A stretch of 40,363 nt of DNA from Alphaproteobacteria bacterium (GTDB lineage Bacteria; Pseudomonadota; Alphaproteobacteria; UBA9219): contig JABDAH010000012.1 of assembly GCA_013289265.1 (NCBI GenBank), forward strand, positions 1 to 40,363. Reading direction: 5' to 3'. The notes beneath the pieces are model-generated. The model saw only the letters and a list, made by a program, of their open reading frames with translations, ran no database searches and had not been told where the DNA came from. Made by a program: the position numbers and the translations under genes. Numbering within the stretch: position 1 is the stretch's first letter; every line of letters starts with the position of its first letter. Below are positions 11,496-14,462 of the stretch, one piece after another.

Positions 11496-11523
11496 TTGAC
11501 ATAGCAAATGTCAAAGGTGTACT
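11496..11523 (+). promoter_or_regulatory. Probable mgtA promoter with overlapping palindromic operator
   Basis: TTGACA (11496-11501) and TGTACT (11518-11523) are separated by 16 bp, a good sigma-70-type pair. The -35 box is also the left arm of a perfect inverted repeat, TTGACAT-AGCAA-ATGTCAA (11496-11514), placed so that a dimeric regulator bound there would cover the spacer. Transcription would start near 11530. Confidence 0.55.
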
Positions 11524-11529
11524 TGGCGG

Positions 11530-11729
11530 CAAGCGTTAGGCGGGTCCGTCTGACAGAGATCAACTTATGAGAGAACAATGGACGGCGACAGTAGTTGCGG
11601 CTGGGCACAATATTCTCAGACCGTACATACAATGTCTCCAGCATTCCCTGCCCGTTGCAGTGTGAAGAGCGGTAGCTAAAGCCAGCTCTTTTCACCTCTG
11701 GTCGCGGGATTGTCCGGGAGGTGATAGAT
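11530..11729 (+). promoter_or_regulatory. Structured mgtA 5' leader, candidate Mg2+ riboswitch with SD-masking hairpin
   Basis: From the predicted transcript start to the ATG lie about 200 nt without a gene. The 5' end, GTTAGGCGGGTCC (11535-11547), and the late segment GCTAAAGCC (11674-11682) resemble conserved parts of the M-box (ykoK) Mg2+ aptamer, though I cannot fold the full structure by eye. Near the end, AAGAGC (11665-11670) pairs with GCTCTT (11685-11690). TCACCTC (11692-11698) is the perfect complement of GAGGTGA (11718-11724), which contains the mgtA Shine-Dalgarno GGGAGG. The two hairpins abut and may compete, giving a plausible translational switch. The M-box identity is inference; the SD-masking pair is directly visible. 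Confidence 0.45.
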
Positions 11730-14462
11730 ATGACGAACACTCCATCTGAAAACAATGGATCTTTCATGCAAAGATCCGTGTCTCTGGTCACAAATCTTTT
11801 TGCGCCACGCAAAGATATCATCGTTCAAACACGCGCATCGGAAATCTACGGCGTAGTCGCCCGCATGGAACCCGACATTGCTTTGCAGCATATGAATAGC
11901 CGCAACGAAGGCTTGTCGGAAGAAGAAGCTTCAGAACGTCTGGAAAAATTCGGCAAAAATCAGGTTGTCAGCGAAGAACATAAGAGCGTTATCAAACAGC
12001 TGCTGCAGCTTATTATTAATCCACTCAACATAATGCTGATTGCGCTGGCGATCCTGAATTTCTTTTTTCTGGATGATATGGAATCCGGCACCGTCGTTTT
12101 GACGATGGTCGTTCTCAGTGTCTCGCTTTCCTTCTTTCAGGAACGCCGTTCCAATAATGCCGCCGAGAAGTTGCGCGACATGGTCAGCACCACGGCTTCG
12201 GTCATGCGACGCATACAGTCCGAAGGCGGCCAGCTGGAAGACAGCGAATCCACCAATACCCGCAAATCCATGCGTCTTGAATTACCGGTAGATGAGCTGG
12301 TGCCCGGCGATGTGCTTTGGCTTTCGGCCGGGGATATGATCCCGGCGGATGTGCGCATTCTTTCCGCGCGCGATTTGTTCATCAACCAGTCAGCTTTGAC
12401 CGGCGAATCCATGCCAGTCGAAAAATTCCCGGCGCTGACGGATACCACAGCCAAGAATTTTCTCGATTACAGCAATATCGCCTTTATGGGCAGCCATGTT
12501 GTCAGCGGGACCGCGAAGGCTGTGATTATCACGACGGGGACCAGCACTTATTTCGGTGCACTGGCCCGCACTATCGTTGGCCGTCGTGCCCAGACCAGCT
12601 TTGAAAAAGGCATCAATCGTTTTACCTGGCTGATGATCAAATTCATGCTGGTAATGGTACCGCTGGTTTTCCTCGTCAACGGCTTTACCAAGCATAACTG
12701 GATGGAAGCCTTTATTTTTGCGATGTCCGTAGCCGTAGGCCTGACACCGGAAATGCTGCCAATGATTGTCACGGTCAATCTCAGCAAAGGCGCTCTGGCC
12801 ATGTCGCGCAAAAAAGTCATCGTCAAGCGCCTGAATTCGATTCAGAATTTCGGCGCGATGGATGTCCTCTGCACTGATAAAACCGGCACGCTGACACAAG
12901 ACAAAGTCATTATGAAACGCCACATTGATTTACGCGGCGAAGATTGCGATTCCGTCCTGCATTACGCCTATCTGAATAGCTTTTATCAATCCGGCCTAAA
13001 AAACCTGCTTGATGTCGCCGTGCTCGACCATGTCGATATCAGGCAGGATCTGCATATCGACGATCAGGCTTACGGTAAGATAGATGAAATTCCGTTCGAT
13101 TTCGTACGCCGGCGTATGTCGGTTGTCGTGTCGAAGGCCGAGACCCAGCAACATATTTTGATTTGCAAAGGCGCTGTCGAAGAAATCATCAGCATTTGCA
13201 CCAAAGGTGAAATCAACGGCGAACCGTTTGATATGACACTTACGCATCGCGACGAAATGCTGAAACTCGCACGCGACCTGAACGAAGATGGTTTCCGCGT
13301 TATTGCTGTCGCCCATAAAGATATGCCGGCAGCCCAGAGCGTCTACGGCGTGAAGGATGAGAGCGACCTGACACTCATTGGCTATATCGCCTTCCTTGAC
13401 CCGCCGAAAGACAGTGCCGCAGCTGCTATCGCCGCCCTTGGACGTCACGGGGTTGCTGTTAAAATTTTGACTGGCGACGGCGATATCGTCACGCGCCGCG
13501 TTTGCAAGGATGTTGGACTGAAAATCGAAGCACTTCTACTTGGTAGCGCTATCGAAAACATGACTGATGATGAACTTGCAAAGCAGGTTAACGGTACAAC
13601 TGTATTCGCCAAACTATCACCCGCACAGAAAGCCCGCGTGATTGCAGCGCTTCACACTAACGGACATGTGGTCGGTTTCCTCGGTGACGGCATTAATGAC
13701 GGCCCCGCCCTGAAAGCCGCCGATGTTGGCATTTCAGTTGATACAGGCGCGGATATCGCCAAGGAATCCGCCGACATCATTCTGCTGGAAAAAAGCCTTA
13801 TGGTGCTGGAAGAAGGTGTTCTGGAAGGCCGCAAGGTTTTCGGCAACATCACCAAATATATTAAAATGGGTGCGAGCTCTAACTTCGGCAATATGTTCAG
13901 CGTGCTGGGCGCCAGCGCATGGCTACCATTCCTGCCGATGCTGCCGATTCAGATTCTAACCAACAATCTGCTTTATGATTTCTCGCAAACGGCGATACCG
14001 ACCGATCATGTTGACGATGAATACCTGACGGCCCCGCGCAAGTGGGATATCAGCTACATCGCCAAATTCATGGTATGCCTCGGGCCGATTAGCTCGATTT
14101 TCGATTATGCGACTTTTGCGATTATGTATTATGGGTTTGGCGCGAACACAGTCGCCAATGCGCATCTGTTTCAGACTGCATGGTTTATAGAATCCATCCT
14201 GACGCAGACACTCATCATCCACATCATTCGTACGAATAAAATTCCGTTTATTCAGAGCCGCGCCAGCTGGCCGTTAATTATTACAACCCTTAGTATATGT
14301 GCGATTGGCATCTGGCTGCCCTACTCGCTATTCTCGCGCAGCCTGGGTTTTGTCCAGTTGCCCTGGGTGTTCTGGCCTATCGTCGGCGCGATTATTATCT
14401 GCTACCTGATGCTGGCACACATCGTGAAGAATAAATTCATTCGCCGGTTTGGATGGAATTGA
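11730..14462 (+). CDS. mgtA: Magnesium-transporting P-type ATPase (P3B, MgtA/MgtB type)
   Basis: The protein (910 aa) imports Mg2+ across the inner membrane at the cost of ATP. Core motifs are present: TGES in the actuator domain, the phosphorylated Asp in CTDKTGTLT (D383), the hinge GDGINDGPALKAADVG, and MgtA-like membrane segments (MSVAVGLTPEMLPMIV; SSNFGNMFSVLGASAWLPFLPMLPIQ). I use the ATG at 11730, 8 nt after GGGAGG; a GTG at 11721 would lie on the Shine-Dalgarno itself. The N-terminal about 90 residues are the usual cytoplasmic extension. The gene is monocistronic, behind a structured leader, and a palindromic repeat follows the stop. Confidence 0.95.
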   Translation: MTNTPSENNGSFMQRSVSLVTNLFAPRKDIIVQTRASEIYGVVARMEPDIALQHMNSRNEGLSEEEASERLEKFGKNQVVSEEHKSVIKQLLQLIINPLNIMLIALAILNFFFLDDMESGTVVLTMVVLSVSLSFFQERRSNNAAEKLRDMVSTTASVMRRIQSEGGQLEDSESTNTRKSMRLELPVDELVPGDVLWLSAGDMIPADVRILSARDLFINQSALTGESMPVEKFPALTDTTAKNFLDYSNIAFMGSHVVSGTAKAVIITTGTSTYFGALARTIVGRRAQTSFEKGINRFTWLMIKFMLVMVPLVFLVNGFTKHNWMEAFIFAMSVAVGLTPEMLPMIVTVNLSKGALAMSRKKVIVKRLNSIQNFGAMDVLCTDKTGTLTQDKVIMKRHIDLRGEDCDSVLHYAYLNSFYQSGLKNLLDVAVLDHVDIRQDLHIDDQAYGKIDEIPFDFVRRRMSVVVSKAETQQHILICKGAVEEIISICTKGEINGEPFDMTLTHRDEMLKLARDLNEDGFRVIAVAHKDMPAAQSVYGVKDESDLTLIGYIAFLDPPKDSAAAAIAALGRHGVAVKILTGDGDIVTRRVCKDVGLKIEALLLGSAIENMTDDELAKQVNGTTVFAKLSPAQKARVIAALHTNGHVVGFLGDGINDGPALKAADVGISVDTGADIAKESADIILLEKSLMVLEEGVLEGRKVFGNITKYIKMGASSNFGNMFSVLGASAWLPFLPMLPIQILTNNLLYDFSQTAIPTDHVDDEYLTAPRKWDISYIAKFMVCLGPISSIFDYATFAIMYYGFGANTVANAHLFQTAWFIESILTQTLIIHIIRTNKIPFIQSRASWPLIITTLSICAIGIWLPYSLFSRSLGFVQLPWVFWPIVGAIIICYLMLAHIVKNKFIRRFGWN

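Follow-up and report, generated by a model that had tools for sequence, protein, structure and literature searches.

A candidate leader-peptide Mg2+ switch with translational output upstream of mgtA in Alphaproteobacteria

The mgtA locus and its upstream ORF

The stretch of DNA analysed here (the window; 40,363 nucleotides, contig JABDAH010000012.1 of an Alphaproteobacteria bacterium) carries a gene for a true MgtA, a Mg2+-importing P-type ATPase, recognised by TIGR01524 with E = 0 and 1198.7 bits against a cut-off of 610.75. mgtA is the first large gene behind the promoter of its own leader and does not occupy an mgtC–mgtB intergenic position (Table 1). An earlier note on this DNA had credited the leader with a good promoter. 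TTGAC is indeed conserved in 14/14 leaders of the family described below, 72–99 nt upstream of the ATG of an upstream ORF (uORF), with GTGTAC 15–17 nt further on in most; the TTGACA promoter was absent, however, from the output of a plain consensus sigma-70 scan because its -10 element is off consensus. The transcript of the mgtA leader would start near 11531.

Table 1. Coordinates of features at the mgtA locus of the window, several of them predicted.
Feature	Position	Strand	Elements	Basis
Promoter	11496..11524	+	TTGACA 11496-11501, spacer about 17 nt, GTACTT 11519-11524	Conserved across family leaders
Shine-Dalgarno (SD) region of uORF	11569..11577	+	GAGAGAACA	GAGA in 13/13 aligned leaders
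uORF	11578..11679	+	33 codons (2 and 4 acidic), MDGDSSCGWAQYSQTVHTMSPAFPARCSVKSGS, TAA stop at 11677-11679	Acidic-start uORF at 14/14 family sites
Stem P1, at uORF start	11584..11639	+	11584-11590 with 11633-11639	RNAalifold and folds of 13 sequences
Hairpin P2, directly after the acidic codons	11596..11625	+	11596-11605 with 11615-11625	Swapped-arm test
Candidate anti-sequestor	11656..11702	+	Arm 2 (uORF 3' half, core AAGAGC 11665-11670) with arm 3 (GCTCTT 11685-11690, then TCACCTC); uORF stop in loop	Family-wide pairing
Sequestor hairpin, predicted to mask the mgtA SD	11692..11724	+	TCACCTC 11692-11698 with GAGGTGA 11718-11724	14/14 leaders, covariation
mgtA	11730..14462	+	ATG at 11730	ORF and TIGR01524

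The same note had taken the leader to be non-coding, which does not stand: its conserved core, GAGAGAACA-ATGGACGGCGACAGTAG, is the opening of an ORF. In the window the encoded peptide opens MDGDSSCGW..., and the stop codon, which falls inside 'GCTAAAGCC', lies 12 nt upstream of the SD-masking arm. It had also proposed that the leader might be an M-box (ykoK) riboswitch, here with a translational platform, and had pointed to a 5' segment, GTTAGGCGGGTCC, as M-box-like; this segment lies outside the conserved core. The mgtA context would suit an M-box, and PMC12810186 describes an M-box of M. tuberculosis that acts on translation and precedes a small uORF. Nevertheless, the RF00380 covariance model found no match in the window or in the genome draft (about 64% complete), while it gave matches in both control genomes, B. 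subtilis and L. lactis. The M-box was rejected at covariance-model sensitivity and its probability is, in our estimation, close to nil. No Rfam family reached its gathering score in the window, and at E values up to 5 there was just one unrelated 12-bit match. The enterobacterial mgtA leader constitutes the Rfam family Mg_sensor, and this model likewise had no gathering-level match in the window.

BLASTN searches with 361 nt of leader against 59 relatives gave matches in 12 genomes (its own included), and the best stretch always covered about 11569-11591 and not the SD hairpin. A covariance model (R1) built from the leader core identified 14 sites in 13 of the 24 genomes of the same family, none in the nine same-order genomes outside that family and, with stricter filters, matches in two of 385 genomes of the class, both from its own family. 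A core-pattern search of 84,980 named species returned 43 stretches, 12 of which were family members by R1 at 59–95 bits, the next scoring 26.8 bits or less. Eight of the remaining 31, chosen by score or taxon, were read together with L026, and 23 were judged by score alone. From the lower-scoring stretches we retained L060 (Pseudochrobactrum, 26.8 bits, before mgtA) and L026, which scores merely 25.3 bits and, lying directly before mgtA, is the fourteenth site. Eight core-pattern stretches in viral contigs were rejected, none of them exceeding 21 bits. When the Pseudochrobactrum leader was searched as DNA against 347 genomes from its order, it found itself and two weak matches. Ten of 33 genomes of the window's order have an mgtA-like gene, six of these with a uORF. 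No such uORF precedes the mgtA of G011 (close family, 73% identity), the mgtA-like genes of G002 and G004 (54% identity) lack a uORF, and in G001 the contig begins inside the mgtA-like gene.

At the first 13 family sites the uORF frame is open for 22–37 codons and starts MDGDS, MDDDS, MDGDR or MDGDT, and at L026 it has 21 codons (MDGDRC...). Openness of the frame is in itself weak evidence, because the +1 frame is also often long. The position of the stop codon is more telling: the distance from the uORF stop to the main start codon is 39–60 nt at 14/14 family sites, with a standard deviation of 4.9, as against 108–168 nt (standard deviation 18.4) from the uORF ATG, which correlates with uORF length at 0.97 over the 14 sites, and stops in the +1 frame are scattered (standard deviation 33.9; one of 14 sites without any). 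Judged by these comparisons, the uORF is real. Codons 1–6 are highly conserved at the nucleotide level across the family, which is consistent with a direct role of the RNA too, and no proline occurs in codons 2–6 of the window uORF or the other family peptides.

Codons 5 and 6 (11590-11595 in the window) have a pattern of their own. Serine is AGT in almost all lineages, usually with AG- next, while the aspartate codons vary; exceptions are L009 and L026 (AGG TG-) and L010 (ACT AGT). The comparison points to a constraint on the serine AGT at the codon or RNA level.

Genes downstream of the leader family

The leader precedes mgtA at six of the 14 sites, directly in L001, L005, L006 and L026, with a short ORF in between in L009, and with both a short ORF and a DUF736 gene in between in L004. 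An Nramp-family gene is the target at five sites (L002, L003, L008, L010 and L012), a DUF736 gene at two (L007 and L011), and one site (L013) has no recognisable transporter downstream. The four Nramp proteins that were scanned fell far under the MntH cut-off. When two were compared with the PDB, 7qia was by far the best match (E = 2.6e-40 and 1.9e-67), an accession named in the paper on the magnesium transporter EleNRMT (PMC8806188). In L010 the Nramp-related gene is followed by a gene with MgtE_N and CBS domains, a neighbourhood given for NrmT in PMC4072509; according to the same paper, not every NrmT moves mainly Mg2+. The Nramp-related targets thus appear to be Mg-transporter-like, and the leader family is linked to Mg2+ importers.

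DUF736 genes stand behind the leader in L004, L007 and L011, in the first of these between the leader and mgtA, and they may have a role in Mg2+ limitation. L013 (G016:C5) and L164 contain a complete leader copy with a weak FkbM match and a GNAT gene 3' of it; since the L013 leader has no transporter, its target may have been lost. At L009, L013, L004 and L011 a second short ORF lies behind the sequestered SD and has a C-terminal acidic-Pro-Pro pattern (SDKPPS, TDKPPS, SDEPPP and EAEPPS). This ORF, which is absent from the window, possibly encodes a Pro-Pro pausing leader peptide, making the uORFs tandem.

Alternative pairings of the leader RNA

TCACCTC and GAGGTGA are exactly complementary, and GAGGTGA overlaps the mgtA SD; this hairpin and all its coordinates are exactly as the earlier note had described them. 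When the stretch 3' of the uORF stop was folded, an SD-sequestering hairpin was found at the equivalent place in 14/14 homologous leaders. Three columns of the stem show double-sided changes, with G-C replaced by A-U in L006, L009 and L013 and separately in L005, and A-U by G-C in L010; at least one position is unpaired in L004, L006, L008, L011, L012, L013 and L026. The two arms of one leader also pair better with each other than arms exchanged among leaders do (p = 0.0014 by permutation). These results favour the original proposal of an mgtA leader RNA with translational control by SD masking: the stem that holds the mgtA ribosome binding site (RBS) is conserved, and it is predicted to inhibit translation. 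The leader of the window as a whole was no more stable than its shuffles (z = -0.45; 71/200 shuffles at least as stable).

It had further been noticed that the stem AAGAGC/GCTCTT ends one base (T11691) before the TCACCTC arm, which is correct, and that the two stems could be mutually exclusive. Over the family set this second claim is well supported. Pairing of arm 2 with arm 3 exceeded that of swapped arms (p = 5e-5, 14 sequences), although the duplex is weak in L004, L005 and L011, and opening the SD cost a mean of 7.1 kcal/mol when the uORF was free or had only its start masked, compared with 12.8 kcal/mol when it was masked to its stop. The resulting gain of 5.76 kcal/mol fell to 1.81 ± 0.44 when the 3' part of the uORF was shuffled, the best of 60 shuffles reaching 2.81. 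For the window leader alone the claim is weak, the effect being matched by 22/60 shuffles and so not above chance, and it is also individually weak in L004 (5/60), L005 (7/60), L006 (10/60) and L010 (10/60). The rule that a finished uORF leaves mgtA closed and a uORF abandoned early leaves it open is therefore supported by the predicted folds of the family, and for the window we infer it.

The sign of the response could in principle be the opposite. A ribosome finishing the uORF would then adjoin arm 3 and melt the SD hairpin, turning mgtA on, with the acidic start merely tuning uORF output. The proximity of the uORF stop to the 5' side of arm 3 (12 nt in the window) would allow this, and masking to 12 nt past the stop lowered the opening cost in L009, L010 and L011. 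The mean cost under this masking was nonetheless 10.6 kcal/mol, still above the 7.1 with a free uORF, and over the family set a free 3' half of the uORF opened the SD beyond what shuffled sequences did. We consider this arrangement quite improbable, while noting that in leaders with a short gap (L009 and L011) the hairpin could be opened by a ribosome that waits at the stop and partly occludes arm 3.

Two further pairings lie within the uORF. P1 is imperfect in several of the 13 sequences, and its 3' arm is missing in L026. The MAFFT-based consensus fold of the family core contained merely five pairs because P2 varies in length, and P2 was therefore tested by swapping arms; its own arms paired far better than swapped ones, with 0/20000 permutations (13 sequences) equalling them. 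Covariation among related mgtA leaders had been suggested as a check, and both the sequestor hairpin and this upstream hairpin covary; the lack of covariance support that had been named as refuting was not seen.

The covariation of P2, together with the very high nucleotide conservation of the core and the recurrence of TGTCTCC in frames that differ with respect to the ATG, would also be expected of a new Mg2+ (or Mn2+) riboswitch, in which P1, P2 and the near-invariant AUGGACGGCGACAGUAG formed an aptamer for the metal and so controlled the SD hairpin, the ORF being incidental. An incidental ORF fits poorly, however, with a stop whose distance to the main start is fixed, or with an acidic peptide start that recurs without the 3' arm of P1 (L026) and, in other orders, with different aspartate codons; there was no Rfam match either. 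A riboswitch is in our judgement unlikely. The suggestion that this might be a new Mg2+ leader thus holds in outline, with the qualification that the conserved core looks like the beginning of a leader peptide more than an aptamer on its own.

The reading that we think the leader probably, though by no means certainly, represents is a leader-peptide Mg2+ switch with translational output. Ribosomes would initiate on the MDGDSS... uORF and, when Mg2+ is adequate, read it to its stop and cover arm 2, so that arm 3 (the anti-SD) would pair with arm 4 (the mgtA SD) and close mgtA. At low Mg2+ the Asp-x-Asp nascent chain would destabilise the ribosomes, with P2 in their path, and cause them to leave early; arm 2 would then capture arm 3, exposing the SD and allowing mgtA to be translated. 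Comparison of the leaders supports the uORF, its fixed position with respect to the hairpin, the covariation of the SD hairpin, the opening of the SD over the family set and the link to Mg2+ importers. Translation of the uORF, its Mg2+-dependent abortion at the acidic codons and the sign of the response are steps that we infer. Observations that speak against the switch are the weak effect in the window leader alone and its ordinary overall stability, the weak arm 2–arm 3 duplex of three leaders, the nucleotide conservation of codons 1–6, the covariation of P2, which an aptamer hairpin would show too, the absence from MDGD of the prolines of the MgtL EPDP motif, and the mgtA genes in G011 and several other groups that have no such uORF.

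Acidic leader peptides in other groups and in known systems

R1 detects only the family form, and the wider class was found by reading mgtA leaders instead. The uORF of the Pseudochrobactrum leader (L089) is MDDDSSRWLCAV, a uORF being present in the cultivable species Pseudochrobactrum asaccharolyticum, and in other groups uORFs begin MDDYPSR... (L096), MDDDPSR... (L097 and L098), MDDPDSIDADD... (L099 and L100) and MPDGSDSII... (L151), or, with a GTG start codon, MSDGDSSR... (L123), MSDGYSSH... (L150) and MPDEDDSSP... (L149). In these leaders, fetched because MgtA follows, aspartate codons switch between GAC and GAT while the aspartate stays.

Acidic starts were counted as ATG-started ORFs with two acidic residues in codons 2–5, against an expectation from dinucleotide shuffles. 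Such an ORF occurred in 7/15 high-scoring MgtA leaders (1.1 expected), a figure that includes the window and partly non-independent leaders (the pairs L097/L098 and L099/L100), and in 5/37 leaders of a low-scoring ATPase control (3.3 expected). A phylum-wide sample gave 11/26 mgtA leaders (1.4 expected), some of which, such as L187 and L191, are probably due to chance. The same scan recovered MDPDP and MEPDP peptides, which match the MgtL EPDP motif and therefore serve as its positive control. One leader outside the Alphaproteobacteria encodes MDEASSR with the same AGTAGTCGG as Pseudochrobactrum. A start codon followed 9–21 nt on by AGTAG(T/G) was present in 10/50 mgtA leaders (0.87 expected), a count that leaves out L128 and includes L151, a hit with a TTG start that is probably spurious. 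No acidic-start uORF was seen in the mgtA leaders of several other groups, and none that was convincing in L101, L122, L124, L125, L127, L129, L152–L157, L162 and many further loci of the phylum sample.

By eye, SD-masking hairpins lie directly behind the uORF in L099/L100 (AACTCC with GGAGTT) and L151 (TTTCCTT with AAGGAAA). Behind the uORFs of L123 and L150 there is instead a strong hairpin with an A/T-rich tail, and the output may therefore differ; in these leaders a peptide of the same type may act through termination of transcription. Related ORFs lie upstream of two P-type ATPase genes with lower scores (L107 and L110).

As a tentative proposal, which we regard as possible though somewhat doubtful, acidic leader peptides would be an old, Pseudomonadota-wide form of ribosome-based Mg2+ sensing. 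One class of peptide would approximate M-(S/P)-D-(G/D/E)-(D)-(P)-S-(S/R), its serine codon being invariably AGU with AG after it, and would precede mgtA both in several groups of Alphaproteobacteria and in at least one genome from elsewhere. Its outputs would differ (SD masking in the window, L099/L100 and L151; terminator-like hairpins in L123 and L150), it would also have been recruited by Nramp-related Mg2+ transporter genes, and the AGU codon, together with the hairpin that follows it, may serve specifically to make the ribosome pause.

In the literature that we found, Mg2+ sensing through ribosome loss on acidic leader peptides is an enterobacterial story; no report of such leaders in Alphaproteobacteria was found in searches of the open-access literature. 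The present set suggests that the same principle operates in Alphaproteobacteria, where the peptide differs, the output is SD masking at the 5' end and a further transporter family, the Nramp-related one, is involved. The switch may explain the control of mgtA in such bacteria without an M-box, and leaders spread across groups make it possible to ask how much depends on the acidic residues, how much on the AGU codon and how much on the hairpin that the ribosome meets.

Among known systems, the M-box (RF00380) controls Mg2+ importers, NrmT among them (PMC4072509), but is a direct Mg2+ aptamer without a sensing leader peptide. The tandem attenuators of Salmonella mgtCBR (PMC3641672), in which Mg2+ genes are preceded by two short ORFs, resemble those family loci that have a second short ORF, but the peptides differ and the window has one ORF only.

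MgtL, upstream of mgtA in E. coli and Salmonella, is also a short ORF with acidic codons 2 and 4 (EPDP versus DGD); ribosomes are lost there at low Mg2+ on account of Glu2 and Asp4 in EPDP (PMC11282234), a description that MDGD and MDDD fit. Early ribosome loss turns mgtA on at low Mg2+ in the case of MgtL and would do so in the window leader. MgtL differs in that it uses Rho-dependent transcription termination, whereas the window leader is predicted to act by SD masking and has no proline at codons 3 and 5.

mgtQ of the Salmonella mgtCBRU operon (PMC8092293) is likewise short, has acidic codons near its start and precedes the gene of a Mg2+ P-type ATPase. Two alternative folds, 1:2/3:4 and 2:3, decide whether the anti-RBS arm is captured or free. 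With translation of mgtQ lowered by Asp2 and Glu5, stem 2:3 arises and the RBS of mgtB becomes accessible, the output being translation of the transporter. Capture of the anti-RBS arm by an alternative stem is a feature that the predicted folds share over the family set. mgtQ itself, in the same source, has eight codons and an mgtC–mgtB intergenic position in Enterobacterales, whereas the family uORFs have 21–37 codons and stand at the 5' end behind their own promoter; their start is of the MD(G/D)DS type, their AGU codon is conserved, P2 covaries within the ORF, and Nramp-related genes are among their targets. By analogy with both systems, we hold it reasonably probable that the switch proposed here would work as mgtQ and MgtL do.
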